From positions 1 through 64,000 of IMG/VR virus record IMGVR_UViG_3300020395_000573: DNA of 64,000 nucleotides; one strand, given 5' to 3'. Position 1 is the first letter of the stretch. Each line of letters opens with the position of its first letter. The notes under the pieces were generated by a model. The model was not told the origin of the DNA and did no database searches. It saw only the letters and a program-made list of their open reading frames with translations. This document shows positions 3,770 through 53,135 of this stretch, one piece after another. The DNA comes from a virus. Made by a program: the position numbers and the translations under genes.

Positions 3770-4779
3770 GTTTCTTAAAAGACATCGTTAAGGAGATTGA
3801 TAATGAATATGCTAGCTTGGTCTCAGATGGAGTGGCAGCTGGTGATACAAGCGGCTTTATCGACACTGGTAGCTATATTTTTAATGCTCTTGTATCTGGG
3901 TCAATATTCGGGGGAATCCCAGGAAATAAAATCACTGCTCTCGCTGGAGAGTCAAGTACTGGCAAGACTTATTTTTGTCTTGGCGTTGTCCAGCATTTCC
4001 TTGAGTCTAATCCCGATGCTGGTGTCATATATTTTGAATCAGAATCTGCTATAAGTAAGCAGATGATTGAGTCTAGAAATATAGATGCCAATCGTATGAT
4101 GATTGTACCAATTACAACGGTGCAAGAGTTTAGAACACAATCGATAAGAATCTTAGATAAATACCTGAGTCAGGATCCAAAGTCACGTAAACCGTTGATG
4201 TTTGTTCTTGATTCTCTTGGCATGTTATCTACTACTAAAGAGGTAGAAGATGCTGAGGCAGGTAAAGAGACACGTGACATGACTCGTGCTCAAATAGTTA
4301 AGTCAATATTTAGAGTCCTTACTCTTAAATTGGGTAAGGCAAATGTCCCTCTATTAGTTACAAATCATACCTACGATGTGGTCGGCAGTTATATCCCAAC
4401 TAAAGAAATGGGAGGCGGTAGTGGCCTCAAATATGCCGCGAGTACAATCATCTATCTTAGCAAAAAAAAGGAAAAGGATTCGCAAGAAGTTGTTGGAAAC
4501 ATTATCAAAGCTAAGAGTGCTAAATCGAGACTCGCAAAAGAAAACTCCCAAGTAGAAACGAGGTTATTCTATGACGAACGTGGCCTGGACTCCTATTACG
4601 GATTACTTGAACTGGGTGAAAAGTACGAAGTATTTAAGAAGGCAGGGAATCGCTATGAAATGGGGGAGAAGAAGGTTTATCCGAAGGCAATTTTGGAAAC
4701 TCCTGAACAGTATTTCACCCCAGAAATAATGCAAGCACTTGATGAGTGTGCAAAGAAGGAGTTCAGTTATGGCAACTGA
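3766..4779 (+). CDS. uvsX: UvsX RecA-like recombinase
   Basis: A 337-residue strand-exchange ATPase of T4 UvsX/RecA type. The Walker A motif GESSTGKT lies near residue 62 and the Walker B segment FVLDSLGML near residue 146; [11 protein letters not shown] matches a DNA-binding loop of UvsX. It works with gp32, gp41 and gp43 in recombination-dependent replication. The gene sits in a polymerase-recombinase-helicase run with overlapping starts and stops. Confidence 0.96.
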
Positions 4780-26864: not shown

Positions 26865-26906
26865 ATGTCTTTTCATACCTCTCTCAAAACGCAATCATCT
26901 AAATGA
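26865..26906 (+). CDS. Leader ORF overlapping the psbA start
   Basis: A 13-codon frame ([13 protein letters not shown]) preceded by AAGGGG at 26854-26859. Its stop overlaps the psbA ATG as ATGA (26903-26906). psbA itself has no Shine-Dalgarno sequence, so ribosomes may reach it by coupling. Confidence 0.5.
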
Positions 26907-27985
26907 CAACTCTTTCAAAAAGAGATAGCGGTCTATTAGCTGGATGGCCTCAGTTCTGTGAGTGGGTTACTTCAACCGAGAATAGAATCTATGTCGGTTG
27001 GTTCGGAGTCTTAATGATTCCATGCTTACTCGCAGCAACTACGTGCTTCATCATAGCATTCATCGCTGCTCCTCCTGTCGATATCGATGGGATCCGTGAA
27101 CCTGTTGCAGGTTCATTCATGTATGGTAACAACATCATCTCTGGTGCTGTAGTTCCATCTTCCAACGCAATTGGATTACACTTCTATCCCATTTGGGAAG
27201 CTGCTACTCTTGATGAGTGGCTGTATAATGGAGGTCCATATCAGTTGGTTATCTTCCACTTCCTTATAGGAATATCTGCATACATGGGCAGACAGTGGGA
27301 GTTATCGTATCGCTTGGGTATGCGCCCTTGGATCTGTGTTGCTTACTCCGCACCAGTATCAGCGGCCTTCGCTGTCTTCTTGGTCTATCCTTTCGGACAA
27401 GGATCATTCTCTGACGGTATGCCTCTCGGTATTTCGGGTACGTTCAACTTTATGTTTGTCTTCCAGGCGGAACATAATATCCTCATGCATCCATTCCACA
27501 TGGCAGGTGTGGCGGGTATGTTCGGTGGTGCTTTGTTCAGTGCTATGCACGGTTCATTGGTTACATCTTCACTTATCCGTGAGACTACAGAAAATGAGTC
27601 TCAGAACTATGGTTACAAGTTTGGTCAAGAAGAAGAGACCTACAACATCGTTGCTGCTCATGGATACTTCGGTAGATTAATCTTCCAGTATGCATCGTTT
27701 AACAACAGTCGAAGTCTTCACTTCTTCCTTGCTACATTCCCAGTTGTATGCGTATGGTTAACCTCTATGGGTATCTGTACAATGGCATTCAACCTGAATG
27801 GATTCAACTTCAACCAGTCTATCGTAGATGCTGGTGGTAAGGTTGTTCCTACATGGGGTGATGTTCTTAACAGAGCAAACTTGGGTATGGAAGTTATGCA
27901 TGAAAGAAATGCACACAACTTCCCACTTGACCTTGCTGCTGCTGAGACCTCTGAAGTCGCTCTTGTAGCACCTTCAATTGGTTGA
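26903..27985 (+). CDS. psbA: Photosystem II D1 protein
   Basis: A 360-residue D1 reaction-centre protein, full length and intact. Five membrane helices, the Tyr-Z region ([11 protein letters not shown]), the metal-binding FSDGMPLG, and chlorophyll and quinone ligands in [11 protein letters not shown] are all present. The residue equivalent to D1-130 is Gln ([11 protein letters not shown]), the D1:1-type variant. The C-terminus after LDLA is the usual processing extension. Phage D1 replaces damaged host D1 to keep photosynthesis going during infection. Confidence 0.98.
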
Positions 27986-28010
27986 CACACACAGGTTAGT
28001 CTGATATAAT
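27982..28010 (+). promoter_or_regulatory. Consensus promoter for the restriction-modification genes
   Basis: TTGACA (27982-27987), 17-nt spacer, TATAAT (28005-28010). The -35 box contains the psbA stop codon. The expected start (~28017) is within the first arm of the psbA terminator. Confidence 0.85.
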
Positions 28011-28035
28011 AAGGGGGTATCACACCCCCTTTTTT
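28011..28035 (+). terminator. psbA terminator
   Basis: GGGGGT (28013-28018) pairs with ACCCCC (28024-28029), 5-nt loop, six T. A near-copy follows gp32 at 40780. Confidence 0.85.
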
Positions 28036-28036
28036 C

Positions 28037-28561
28037 ATGGCTATTTTAAAGTACGTGGGCACAGTGATTAATAATATAAACGGATTTAAACAGTCAACAC
28101 GTCCTAAGAACGTTGGACAGTTGAGTGATATGATACAGGAGTATAAAGATACTACTGTTGCTCCCTCTAAAGAGGGATGGATAAACTATTATGAAGGTGA
28201 GCAGTCAGGATCTATTGATACTGCAACCGATAAGACTTGGGAAGGGATACAGGAACTGATAGTAAATTTACAGTCTCTTACCAAAGAAGATGTTAGAAAT
28301 TGGACAGAAGATTTAGTAATTGATAAGACCTTTGATGGTCTATTCTGGCAGGAAGAAATCCTTAAGCAATCATCTAAGACTGGTGAGTATAGGTTAGCAA
28401 CTCCAGAAGAGGAAGCAAAAGGAATAGATGGAGTAGTTGATGGTGAGTTTGTATCAATTAAACCTGATACTTATAAGCAGACTATTAATTCTAAGCAAGA
28501 GAATATTGATGTGCGTATAATTTATTACAAGAAACTAAGCAAAGGTTTTAGATTAGTATGA
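28037..28561 (+). CDS. Type II restriction endonuclease, MjaI-like
   Basis: 174 residues. Matches my recollection of the MjaI family in several places: STRPKNVGQLSDMIQE near the start, WINYYE, KTFDGLFWQEEIL, and the nuclease core RLATPEEEAKGIDG followed by VSIKPDTYK and VRIIYYKK. The acidic residues and SIK lysine fit a PD-(D/E)xK-type site. MjaI cuts CTAG; the specificity here is inferred only from similarity. It directly precedes, and overlaps by ATGA, a DNA methyltransferase. Confidence 0.72.
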   Translation: MAILKYVGTVINNINGFKQSTRPKNVGQLSDMIQEYKDTTVAPSKEGWINYYEGEQSGSIDTATDKTWEGIQELIVNLQSLTKEDVRNWTEDLVIDKTFDGLFWQEEILKQSSKTGEYRLATPEEEAKGIDGVVDGEFVSIKPDTYKQTINSKQENIDVRIIYYKKLSKGFRLV

Positions 28562-29313
28562 ATGAGATAGTATGTGCTGAGTCCTATGAATACCTTAAGA
28601 CTTTGGATGATGAGAGTGTTGATATCGTATTGACTTCTCCACCTTATAATTTTGGTATGGCATATGATAGTCATAAGGATATGGCTAGTACAAAAACATA
28701 TGTTGATACTCTGCTGAGAATATTAAAGCAGTGTCAACGTGTGCTTAAGAGTGGTGGACGTTTAATCATAAACATTCAACCCAACTATAAAGGTTACTGT
28801 CCAACTCATCATTATCTTACTACTGGTTTGATAGATGCTGGAATGATATGGAGAGGTGAAATTATATGGTTAAAGAATAACCTTAAGAAGTTAACTGCAT
28901 GGGGTAGTTACAAGTCACCTTCATCTCCTTATTTAAGTTATCCTTTTGAGTTTATAGAAGTGTTTAGTAAAGATACAATTAAGCATGAAGGTAAGAAAGA
29001 GGACATAGATATAACCAAGGATGAGTTTATAAAGTATGTCAATGGTCACTGGTCTATGGCACCAGAGACAAGGATGAAAGAGTTCGATCACCCTGCTATG
29101 TTCCCTGAGGAATTAGTAAAGAGATGCTTAAAACTATTCTCGTATAAAAATGATCTTGTACTTGATCCTTTTAATGGTGTTGGTACAACGACATTAGTCG
29201 CACATCAGATGGGCAGGAGGTATATTGGCATAGATATCAGTGGAGCTTATTGTGACACTGCAAAGGATAGAATAAAAAACATACCACTCGACCTTACGAA
29301 AATACTACTATGA
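28558..29313 (+). CDS. DNA methyltransferase, beta class, TSPPY type
   Basis: 251 residues. The catalytic motif TSPPYNFG (near residue 27) precedes the S-adenosylmethionine motif DPFNGVGTTTLVA (near residue 205), the motif order of beta-class amino-methyltransferases. TSPPY suggests N4-cytosine methylation, though N6-adenine cannot be excluded. Overlap with the endonuclease gene indicates a restriction-modification pair. Confidence 0.85.
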   Translation: MNEIVCAESYEYLKTLDDESVDIVLTSPPYNFGMAYDSHKDMASTKTYVDTLLRILKQCQRVLKSGGRLIINIQPNYKGYCPTHHYLTTGLIDAGMIWRGEIIWLKNNLKKLTAWGSYKSPSSPYLSYPFEFIEVFSKDTIKHEGKKEDIDITKDEFIKYVNGHWSMAPETRMKEFDHPAMFPEELVKRCLKLFSYKNDLVLDPFNGVGTTTLVAHQMGRRYIGIDISGAYCDTAKDRIKNIPLDLTKILL

Positions 29314-29979: not shown

Positions 29980-30640
29980 AACTGTTTTCCCTACTGCTGA
30001 AGATGATGTAGTCTTAATACAGTATGAGGATAAGGTTACTGCTGGTAATGGTAGGAAGATAGATTTCCCTGAGGGTAAGGGTGCTGTTTGTTGTGAGATA
30101 TCTGAGATACTTTTTAAGAAGATGGAGGAGCATGGTATTAAGACTCATTACATCGATAGGTATCCTGTAAGTATTATGTCATGTAAGAAGGTAGAGATCA
30201 TTCCTATAGAAGTTGTAGTAAGAAATGTTGCTGCTGGTTCTATAGTAAGACAGACTACATTAGAAGAAGGACATATTATTAATTGGCCATTGGTTGAGTT
30301 CTATCTAAAGGATGATGAGAAAGATGATCCATTACTTACAGAAGATCGTATACAGTTGATGGGATATGGTGAGGATATAGCATCATTGAAACACCACGCA
30401 AGAGAAATTAATGCTATACTAAAGGGGATCTTTCGTAGGATGGATCTTACACTTGTTGATTTTAAATTGGAGTTTGGTTATGATTCTGGACAGAATTTAC
30501 TCTTGGCTGATGAACTATCACCTGACGGAATGCGACTCTGGAAAGACGGTGAAAGTTTTGACAAAGACCTATTCCGTAAGGAAAAGGGAGATATAGTAAC
30601 GGCATATAAATATATCTTAGAGAATCTTAGACAGTTGTAG
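29951..30640 (+). CDS. purC: SAICAR synthetase
   Basis: 229 residues from the ATG at 29951 (GAGG site upstream). GKVKTVFPT is the N-terminal ATP-binding hairpin (GKxK), IEVVVRNVAAGS the PurC signature and VDFKLEFGYD the second one. It joins aspartate to CAIR in purine synthesis. Next gene begins on its last base. Confidence 0.95.
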   Translation: MKELLVGKVKTVFPTAEDDVVLIQYEDKVTAGNGRKIDFPEGKGAVCCEISEILFKKMEEHGIKTHYIDRYPVSIMSCKKVEIIPIEVVVRNVAAGSIVRQTTLEEGHIINWPLVEFYLKDDEKDDPLLTEDRIQLMGYGEDIASLKHHAREINAILKGIFRRMDLTLVDFKLEFGYDSGQNLLLADELSPDGMRLWKDGESFDKDLFRKEKGDIVTAYKYILENLRQL

Positions 30641-50135: not shown

Positions 50136-53135
50136 ATGGCAACTGTAAAGAAAAGTTCTAAAATTGATCTGTATAAGTTTGTACCTTCGGGTGCTACTTC
50201 AACCAAGTCTAATCCTATGGTTAGGACTATGGTGTCTAATGTTGCTGCAGTCAATAATCTTGGTAAGACGGTTAATTCTATTGCAGGTGTTGTAGTTGAT
50301 ATTAAGAAGACTAACCTTGCAAGGTTAGAACAAGAGAGAAAGAATAGAGTAAAATTTAAACCTGATTATACTGTTCCTAAAAAGAGGAAAAGTATGTTCA
50401 GTTTTCTGAACAAGATAAAGAAGGGTAGGATACCTGGATTCTTAGAGTCTTTACTTAATTTACTTGGAGGTTTATTAGGACTTTTTGTTGTCCTTCCGAT
50501 AATGAAATGGCTTGCTGATCCTAATAATCAGAAAAAGGTCGAAACATTTCTTGTAGCATTAGGACATGTCTTTAAAGCAATTGCTGGTTGGGCTAAGTTT
50601 GGTGTCACTAATGCTCTTGATGGTCTGTATAATATGCTTCGAGATGATGCCACTTGGATGGAAAGGTTGGGTGGACTTGCACAATTTTTAATAGGATGGG
50701 CAACGTTGGCAGTGCCAATGATGTGGTTGAATCCTTTTAGAATTGCAAAGTCTAAGGCAGAGTTAGTAGCGATAGGAAAGTTTGTTAAGACTGGTCTTGT
50801 TGCTGCAGCAAAAGATTTTGCAGCCTTGGCAGCTAGTCCTATTGGATTCTTATTTACTGCTGGACTATTATTCACTGCTGGTGGTTGGTTAACTGAGTTA
50901 TTCCCTTGGATGGCTAAGTCTAGTTCTACCAATAAAGTAGATGAAAATGTGGAAGCAGTTGGTTTAATGAATACTATAAAGCAACTGGAAGAGGAGAAAG
51001 CAAAGAAAATTGCGGAACGTGATAAACTTGGTTGGCATGAATTATGGAGAAGGATGGATCTCAATAATGAGATCTCTGAAATTAATAATCAGATAGACAG
51101 ATTAAAAGGAGAAGGTAAGTGGAAAGGTAGAAAGATACCTGGTGCTGATGAAAAAAACTTAGAAGGATTTGACTATAAAGTAGAAACAGGACAGATTAGT
51201 GAAAAAGATTTAGAGACTGTTAATAAGTTAAATGAAAAAATTGAGGAACTTTCAGATTCAGTAAAGGATCAAAGTTTATGGTCATTAATAGGGAATACCT
51301 TCAATCTTAATAATCTTAGGACTAATCGTGAAATTTTAAATCTTAAAAAGCAGATTCATGAAATCCAAATGGGAGTTCCTGAAGATCAGAGAACTCAGAA
51401 AAAAGCATTTGGTAGATTTTTAAATAATTTCTCTCAAGGAGGATGGATAAGTGGACCTCAGTCTGGATATCCTGTTAGTCTTGATGGATCCAATATCGAT
51501 TTTATCGGACATGGTACTGAGTACGTAGCAAGAGGAAAGAGTGACGGTTCAGCATACATTGTTCCTTTTGATACTAAGGCTACAAGAAATAATCCTAATC
51601 TTTTGATGAATCGTCTTGATGAAGCTAAGAGGATGGGTTACCATTTAGGTGGACTCGAACGTGATGCTGGTGGATTATTAGCTAATAATAAGAAGGATGG
51701 TAATAAAACATTAACATTGGGTTGGACTGGTGGTGACTATTCCAATACTAAGGGTAGGTATCATACGGTATTTGGAGGTAGTGGTAAGAGGACACAGAAT
51801 ATAGACTATGGTGATGTAGCGAAACGAGGTAGATCTAGTAATATAGCTCTTGGTATTGCTGCTATGGGTGGTAAAGGTTGGGAAGAATTTCCTCCTACAT
51901 CTTCTCAATTAATTGGTATGATGCAAGAGGCAGCAAAAGTTGGTATGGGTTGGGGAATGGAAGGAAAGGATGTTACACGTAAGAATGTAATGACAGAAGC
52001 AGAAGCTGCAGGTGCTCGTGGTCCTGTTGCTTGGGGTGGTACTGGTGAAGTTTGGGATTTATTTAAGTTAAAGAAAAATGATCCTGATGGGTCTGGTGGT
52101 GATAGATTACGTCAGATGATGCGTAATTTTATGCAGAATCCAGGAAAGAGAAAGGCAGAAGGATATCATGGACGAATGATGTCTAATAATGAATTGAATC
52201 TTCTTAGAAGTTTAGTACTTGCTGAGGCAAGAGGTGAGGGTGTGACTGGAATGGCATTAGTAGCAAGATCTGTTCTACAGAGACAAGCACTTATTAGACA
52301 GGGTGGTAATCCAGGTTTGTTTATGTCAGCAGGGCAAAGTCTTACAGATATCATTTATGGAGATAATCAATATCAACCAACTAGAGATGGTTCTATTAAT
52401 AACAAATGGTCCGCTGGACAACTTGCTTCTGCACAAAAAGCTATAGATTTAGCATTGAATACAGAAAGGTTTAGGAATCAACTTAGAGCAGCAGGGTATG
52501 ATGATACTACAATCAATAAATTACTTGCTTCTACTGGGTTTAGAGGTGTTAGTGCTAAGGATGATCCATCCCAGAATGTTAATAGGACTAAGTTTGGTAA
52601 CCATGTATTTAATACTGCTGGTAATAAATCTGCAACAGATTTAATAGGAACTGAAACAAGTAATAGAAGGTATGCTTCTTCTCCAGGTGCTACTTATAAT
52701 CCTGCTAACATTAGTGGAAGGGAAAATGATGGACAAATTGACTCAATGAATAATAATACTGTTCCTAATTTACCAAGGGGAAAAACAGGTCAACCAAGTG
52801 TTACTATTAATAGAACATCTGATGCTAGAGGAATTAAGAAAGCATCAGAAGAAAGAAATAAAGCAAGGATGCAAATGAATAAGAGGACATTAGCAATTGT
52901 CCAAGAAGCATTAGCAGCAGTTGAAAAACAAAATTCACAGAGTCGTAGTTGGGCACAACAAGCTAATGCTCAGGCTCAGACAGTTCTTGCTAGTGCAAAT
53001 CAACCAAGAATAGTTGGTGGAGGTGGTGGTGGAAGATCAAGAGGAGGTGGAAGTGCTGGTAATCGTGGTATATGGGGCACAGCAGTTAGTATGCTAAATT
53101 CTTTTAGTAATCCTTTGAAAGGTTTATTCTCATGA
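50136..53135 (+). CDS. Large tail protein with SleB-like cell-wall hydrolase domain (paralogue B)
   Basis: 999 residues. N-terminus (DLYKFVPSG; NNLGKTVNSIAGVVVDIKK) and WLADPNNQKKVETFLVALGHVFK match paralogue A. Residues ~685-770 look like a SleB-type peptidoglycan hydrolase: LRSLVLAEARGEGVTGMALV and IIYGDNQYQPTRDGSI. A Gly-rich tail ends the protein. A membrane-like helix (LLGGLLGLFVVLPIMKWL) lies near residue 110. It may locally open the cell wall during DNA entry, a role gp5 fills in T4. Confidence 0.7.
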   Translation: MATVKKSSKIDLYKFVPSGATSTKSNPMVRTMVSNVAAVNNLGKTVNSIAGVVVDIKKTNLARLEQERKNRVKFKPDYTVPKKRKSMFSFLNKIKKGRIPGFLESLLNLLGGLLGLFVVLPIMKWLADPNNQKKVETFLVALGHVFKAIAGWAKFGVTNALDGLYNMLRDDATWMERLGGLAQFLIGWATLAVPMMWLNPFRIAKSKAELVAIGKFVKTGLVAAAKDFAALAASPIGFLFTAGLLFTAGGWLTELFPWMAKSSSTNKVDENVEAVGLMNTIKQLEEEKAKKIAERDKLGWHELWRRMDLNNEISEINNQIDRLKGEGKWKGRKIPGADEKNLEGFDYKVETGQISEKDLETVNKLNEKIEELSDSVKDQSLWSLIGNTFNLNNLRTNREILNLKKQIHEIQMGVPEDQRTQKKAFGRFLNNFSQGGWISGPQSGYPVSLDGSNIDFIGHGTEYVARGKSDGSAYIVPFDTKATRNNPNLLMNRLDEAKRMGYHLGGLERDAGGLLANNKKDGNKTLTLGWTGGDYSNTKGRYHTVFGGSGKRTQNIDYGDVAKRGRSSNIALGIAAMGGKGWEEFPPTSSQLIGMMQEAAKVGMGWGMEGKDVTRKNVMTEAEAAGARGPVAWGGTGEVWDLFKLKKNDPDGSGGDRLRQMMRNFMQNPGKRKAEGYHGRMMSNNELNLLRSLVLAEARGEGVTGMALVARSVLQRQALIRQGGNPGLFMSAGQSLTDIIYGDNQYQPTRDGSINNKWSAGQLASAQKAIDLALNTERFRNQLRAAGYDDTTINKLLASTGFRGVSAKDDPSQNVNRTKFGNHVFNTAGNKSATDLIGTETSNRRYASSPGATYNPANISGRENDGQIDSMNNNTVPNLPRGKTGQPSVTINRTSDARGIKKASEERNKARMQMNKRTLAIVQEALAAVEKQNSQSRSWAQQANAQAQTVLASANQPRIVGGGGGGRSRGGGSAGNRGIWGTAVSMLNSFSNPLKGLFS

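Follow-up and report, generated by a model that had tools for sequence, protein, structure and literature searches.

An MjaI-family restriction–modification cassette of a T4-like cyanomyovirus, probably specific for CTAG and a likely means of fragmenting the host chromosome

The DNA of phage T4 is protected by hydroxymethylcytosine, and its denA and denB nucleases cut the DNA of the host while sparing that of the phage. The denA, denB and ndd genes are missing from cyanomyoviruses, for which a review has suggested that host DNA is either degraded less efficiently or broken down by a route yet to be described (PMC2984593). Among viruses, the closest precedent for a restriction-based solution is provided by the chloroviruses (for example PBCV-1 and NY-2A), which encode restriction–modification pairs for short sites; the restriction enzymes of these viruses are believed to break down the DNA of the host soon after infection begins, and exclusion is not due to them (PMC7019647). 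On the enzyme side, one of the closest known systems is the MjaI system of Methanocaldococcus jannaschii, which is specific for CTAG and has an endonuclease of Pfam family PF09568 and a methyltransferase partner. Here we describe an MjaI-family cassette in the genome of a T4-like cyanomyovirus. The window, that is, the whole stretch of DNA analysed, comprises 64,000 nucleotides (positions 1 to 64,000 of IMGVR_UViG_3300020395_000573) and makes up most of a 77,454-bp IMG/VR record.

Judged by its genes, the locus is a full two-gene type II restriction–modification cassette of the MjaI family (Table 1). The endonuclease gene (R) and the methyltransferase gene (M) are linked, both open reading frames are intact at the coordinates given by an earlier, sequence-only reading, and they overlap by 4 nt in an ATGA at 28558-28561, as that reading had also seen. 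R matched the Pfam profile PF09568 (RE_MjaI) over the full domain, at profile positions 3-161 of 164 (E=1.2e-43, 149 bits, curated cut-off 22.7), and PADLOC REase_II (E=2.3e-42), which bears out the family assignment made at first sight. The GID...SIKP core named at the same time proved near-invariant: in 46 phage and cellular homologues, E126, D131, G132 and K142 are invariant and S140 and I141 are conserved in at least 90%. Structure prediction for R gave a pLDDT of 91.6 and a pTM of 0.57; the best hits of a fold search of this model against the PDB were Holliday junction resolvases at a non-significant E=0.85, and a sequence search of the PDB with R returned no match. M matched PF01555 (N6_N4_Mtase, E=4.8e-42) and PADLOC MTase_II (E=8e-70), and its relatives in the PDB include the N4-cytosine methyltransferases 8s9m and 8s9n. 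The TSPPY motif precedes DPFNGVGTTT, the order of beta-class amino-methyltransferases. The TSPPY methyltransferase of the sequence-only reading is thus confirmed by profile matches and motif order, and M is probably an N4-cytosine methyltransferase.

Table 1 Features of the cassette and its surroundings (positions in the window)
Feature	Position	Strand	Size or residues	Basis or remark
psbA	26903-27985			upstream of R
Sigma-70-type promoter, TTGACA-17-TATAAT, TG ahead of the second hexamer	27982-28010	+		predicted; 12/12 consensus match
Terminator-like hairpin, AAGGGGGT-ATCAC-ACCCCCTT then TTTT	28011-28031	+		predicted; nearly touching the ATG of R
R, MjaI-family type II restriction endonuclease, inferred site CTAG	28037-28561	+	174 aa	PF09568, PADLOC, relatives, site counts, dN/dS
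Probable catalytic core of R (GIDGVVDGEFVSIK)	28427-28462	+	D131...S140-I141-K142	conservation; putative catalytic role
M, beta-class DNA methyltransferase, inferred CTAG protection	28558-29313	+	251 aa	PF01555, PADLOC, PDB relatives
M motif IV, TSPPY	28633-28647	+	residues 26-30	invariant in 15 homologues
M motif I region, DPFNGVGTTT	29164-29193	+	residues 203-212	nearly all invariant in 15 homologues
purN-like formyltransferase	start 29310			after M
purC	29936			after the purN-like gene

The cassette appears to have its own promoter, as claimed earlier: upstream of R lies a perfect consensus sequence, whereas 9/12 matches elsewhere in the region are no more frequent than expected by chance. 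A TATAATA box occupies a similar position 5′ of R in S-H9-2, S-RIM32, L007 and L138, and in S-H9-2, S-RIM32 and close metagenomic relatives it stands behind a terminator-like stretch. In the window, the -10 box runs directly into the terminator hairpin (27982-28037). The hairpin probably ends psbA transcription; given the spacing, transcription from the promoter would start inside the hairpin, so that the R transcript would bypass the terminator at which psbA transcripts would stop.

R was found in ten phage records, every one a cyanophage, and such a gene was already on record, since the R of S-SM2 is labelled a restriction enzyme. S-SM2, S-H9-2, S-RIM32 and S-CAM3 carry the same R family (49-56% identity), and all of these except S-SM2 also share M (73-74%) and its overlap with R. 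The gene order is psbA-R-M in S-H9-2 and S-RIM32 and regA-R-M in S-CAM3, so that the genomic place differs in part, whereas S-SM2 has R alone, near a helicase gene, and no CTAG. Among 46 R loci in IMG/VR, about 37 have M directly after R and six (S-SM2 included) lack a neighbouring M, while two more are truncated and another is divergent; with these numbers, and with isolates already annotated, complete pairs are less rare in lytic phages than the sequence-only reading had supposed. When 58 R proteins were placed in a tree, all phage sequences but one stood apart from the sampled cellular ones (96/93). The R-only sequences form a single clade among R+M phages (97/95), as if M had been lost once; the tree was midpoint-rooted and its backbone among phage subclades is poorly resolved. 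Cellular relatives of R come from archaea and many bacterial phyla, and 65 of 80 such loci have a related methylase within the stretch fetched. At one related locus (L006:178-1448), R is 96% identical to that of the window and M just 74%; recombination thus seems to have taken place close to the R–M junction, and R would work, or have worked, with a diverged M. In S-SM2, a 379-aa protein of no known family (SSM2_067; S-SM2 50782-51921; L001:6636-7775) lies between R and the helicase, at the place that M takes in relatives. We considered it as a substitute methylase and rejected it, as it has no Pfam match and the other R-only contigs do not carry it.

The specificity of R can be read from the phage genomes themselves. 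Compared with counts expected from a Markov model, the window holds 65 CTAG sites (among them the one at 3812 pointed out by the sequence-only reading) instead of 162, a strong depletion that the reading had missed. S-SM2, which has R without M, holds none in 190,789 bp against 291 expected. CTAG is the sole S-SM2 tetramer below 5% of expectation among those expected at least 40 times, and synonymous-codon shuffles of 15 large S-SM2 genes gave a mean of 104 CTAG and a minimum of 84. None of 205 aligned CTAG sites of close relatives is conserved in S-SM2; a control contig keeps 42% of them, and other tetramers are kept at 33-68%. A profile search of the whole S-SM2 genome found no homologue of M, nor does its annotation list a DNA methylase. 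Five metagenomic R-only contigs, fragments for which M could lie elsewhere, have 4 CTAG between them where about 48 would be expected, with two sites in each of two contigs. In phages with both genes the ratio of observed to expected CTAG was 0.36 (this contig), 0.14, 0.07, 0.19, 0.40, 0.08 and 0.19; two R+M contigs were barely depleted (0.80 and 0.81), which counts against our best explanation, as do the sites in the two R-only contigs and the fold search of R with its non-significant hits. In contrast, the ratio was 0.83-1.03 in ten phages or contigs without R, some of them partial, and 80 contigs picked by DNA polymerase similarity to S-SM2 held 970 CTAG of 1089 expected (0.89). The complete genomes compared are few and hand-picked, and the genomes are partly non-independent (S-H9-2, S-RIM32 and G001 have close R genes), so that the comparison carries no formal p-value. 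Together, the zero count with R and without M, and the depletion in most R+M genomes, indicate that R very probably cuts CTAG and strongly imply that M shields this site from R. The CTAG specificity, merely assumed before, thereby gains support from comparative genomics. Very probably, purging of the sites also renders M dispensable.

A second endonuclease family repeats the pattern at another site. S-SM1 has no GTAC against 491 expected, and its unannotated gene SSM1_070 (NC_015282.1 41593-42192; L296:1593-2192) matches PADLOC REase_II (E=9.5e-16) and lies directly upstream of a helicase of family T4-LIKE GC 36, the same as near R in S-SM2. Homologues of SSM1_070 occur in S-SSM5, P-RSM4, S-WAM2, S-TIM4, Syn1, S-RIM44, P-HM1 and MED4-213; a small annotated DNA methyltransferase follows the homologue in S-SSM5, P-RSM4 and S-WAM2, and none is adjacent in Syn1, S-RIM44, P-HM1 and MED4-213. 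Local GTAC counts were mixed at first, in that P-HM1 and MED4-213 held the site. The rule that an endonuclease without a methylase goes with zero GTAC was fixed before whole genomes were counted. In these counts, the methylase-free Syn1 (0/574) and S-RIM44 (0/609) have no site, and S-SSM5 (322/643), P-RSM4 (194/605) and S-WAM2 (43/576), all with the methylase, retain theirs in part; P-HM1 (179/710) turned out to have this methylase about 9 kb off, at 30252, with 77% identity. In IMG/VR, 17 loci with the methylase hold 222 GTAC of 638 expected and two without it, one being S-SM1 itself, hold 0 of 67; of three loci cut off behind the second endonuclease, two are near-identical to S-SM1 and free of GTAC and one has 4 of 13. 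Ratios of 0.30-0.90 in genomes without the second endonuclease mean that partial GTAC depletion alone is not diagnostic. The SSM1_070 family is a probable GTAC endonuclease among hypothetical proteins. Across the two enzyme families and two sites, all four complete genomes with an endonuclease and without a detectable methylase have zero sites.

These zeros bear on whether restriction enzymes of the hosts drove the avoidance of CTAG, with the phage genes as passengers or inactive. In favour of this view, non-temperate phages often avoid the sites that host enzymes cut (PMC6286503), and CCGG is near zero in most cyanomyoviruses whichever R is present. However, CTAG is not avoided where R is absent, and the exact zeros of CTAG and GTAC occur only with the matching endonuclease and without its methylase. 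S-H9-2 (R+M) and S-ShM2 (no R) are both recorded on WH8102, yet their CTAG ratios are 0.14 and 1.00, so hosts do not explain the depletion. R is, moreover, under strong purifying selection, with dN/dS of 0.06-0.11 in the presence of M and 0.075-0.107 in its absence. We therefore consider a host origin of the depletion highly improbable, and an inactive relic was rejected because of this selection and because the exact zeros track R without M.

Several other words are avoided in cyanomyoviruses. S-ShM2 (NC_015281.1) has no TTAA against 586 expected. Either a host enzyme or a third orphan endonuclease may lie behind this, and a look for the gene of such an endonuclease in the genome turned up no candidate. 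CCGG is absent or nearly so in the contig of the window (0/28) and in nearly all cyanomyoviruses examined, and present in S-SM2 (74/166) and contig G010 (77/91). A search for a CCGG nuclease by gene presence and absence led nowhere: one large gene occurs in 14 of 14 CCGG-poor phages and in neither S-SM2 nor G010, and by its start it seems to resemble a D12/Dam-type methylase. GATC is strongly reduced in S-RIM8 (NC_020486.1, 105/676), unlike in the other cyanomyoviruses examined. GCGC is absent from P-SSM7 (0/62), P-HM1 (0/96) and the first 100 kb of P-SSM2 (0/25), and CGCG from P-SSM7 and the same part of P-SSM2; both are very low in the window (2/24 and 3/13, respectively).

The best explanation, which we hold to be likely, is that this lytic T4-like cyanomyovirus uses its MjaI-family CTAG cassette mainly so that R fragments the host chromosome. 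R would cleave unmethylated CTAG, and M would tag the CTAG sites of the phage, probably as N4-methylcytosine, during DNA replication. The host chromosome, its CTAG presumed unmethylated, would be fragmented in infection, upon which its nucleotides could be reused and host expression halted; phage DNA would escape through methylation or through lack of the site. The depletion of CTAG despite M suggests that protection is leaky, and leakiness would lead to a steady loss of CTAG from phage genomes. Once all sites had gone, M would be dispensable and could be lost, as in S-SM2 with its orphan endonuclease, the order of these events being our proposal.

Instead of serving the phage, R and M could persist as a selfish cassette through post-segregational killing or addiction. 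That the cassette sits in different genomic places, after psbA, after regA and near a helicase gene, would suit a mobile element, and leaky self-damage could account for the loss of CTAG despite M. S-SM2 and its kin, however, have no M and no or almost no sites, and would be free to lose R, yet they keep it under the purifying selection given above; R retained after M and the sites have gone argues that it benefits the phage. A lytic phage without a segregating lineage would also suit addiction poorly, and we regard a purely selfish cassette as very improbable. Of the three roles offered by the sequence-only reading (excluding rival phages, degrading host DNA or forcing retention), retention by addiction alone is thus weakened, and degradation of host DNA fits best.

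The same CTAG pair could also bring its main benefit by excluding co-infecting or superinfecting phages with unmethylated CTAG. Type II systems are classically regarded as a means of restricting foreign DNA, cyanophages that lack R would be open to attack with their roughly 2-3 CTAG per kb, and exclusion would leave identical genomic traces. Against this, neither point being decisive, the restriction enzymes of chloroviruses do not cause mutual exclusion (PMC7019647), and exclusion would leave host DNA breakdown without a nuclease (PMC2984593). We therefore judge exclusion as the main benefit to be unlikely, and the likeliest role of R to be the degradation of unmethylated host DNA, a task that falls in T4 to denA and denB, which are missing here.

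Compared with the described systems, the phage cassette differs from the MjaI system in its lytic phage setting, in a protein clade of its own, in having R first with a short overlap into M, and in a sublineage that dropped M. Chloroviruses have a eukaryotic host, an enzyme packaged in the virion and orphan methylases, whereas cyanophages have orphan endonucleases with purged sites. The parallel to T4 denA/denB is a proposed analogy that implies no homology, and self-protection would rest on CTAG methylation or CTAG absence instead of hydroxymethylcytosine. In open-licence papers we found no function or specificity reported for the restriction–modification genes of S-SM2, S-H9-2, S-RIM32 and S-CAM3, and none tying cyanophage restriction genes to the loss of their sites, although earlier reports may exist elsewhere. 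Within that literature, the evidence for specificity, the methylase-free zero-site state and its repetition in a second, hidden enzyme family appear to be new.

Zero-site genomes allow the specificity of an endonuclease to be read with unusual clarity from sequence alone, and the same logic, which has already yielded a probable GTAC endonuclease, could be extended to all phages. They also suggest a route from restriction–modification to loss of the methylase, in which self is marked by a missing word and not by a chemical tag. Whether cyanomyoviruses at large use rotating short-site endonucleases (for CTAG, GTAC and perhaps TTAA) to shred the host genome in place of denA and denB, and have repeatedly given up the methylase of an R+M pair, self then being defined by a word wholly absent from a 170-200 kb genome, we regard as evenly balanced. 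The means by which T4-like cyanophages break down host DNA when they lack the T4 nucleases have been stated to be open (PMC2984593), and the locus described here offers a specific candidate enzyme.
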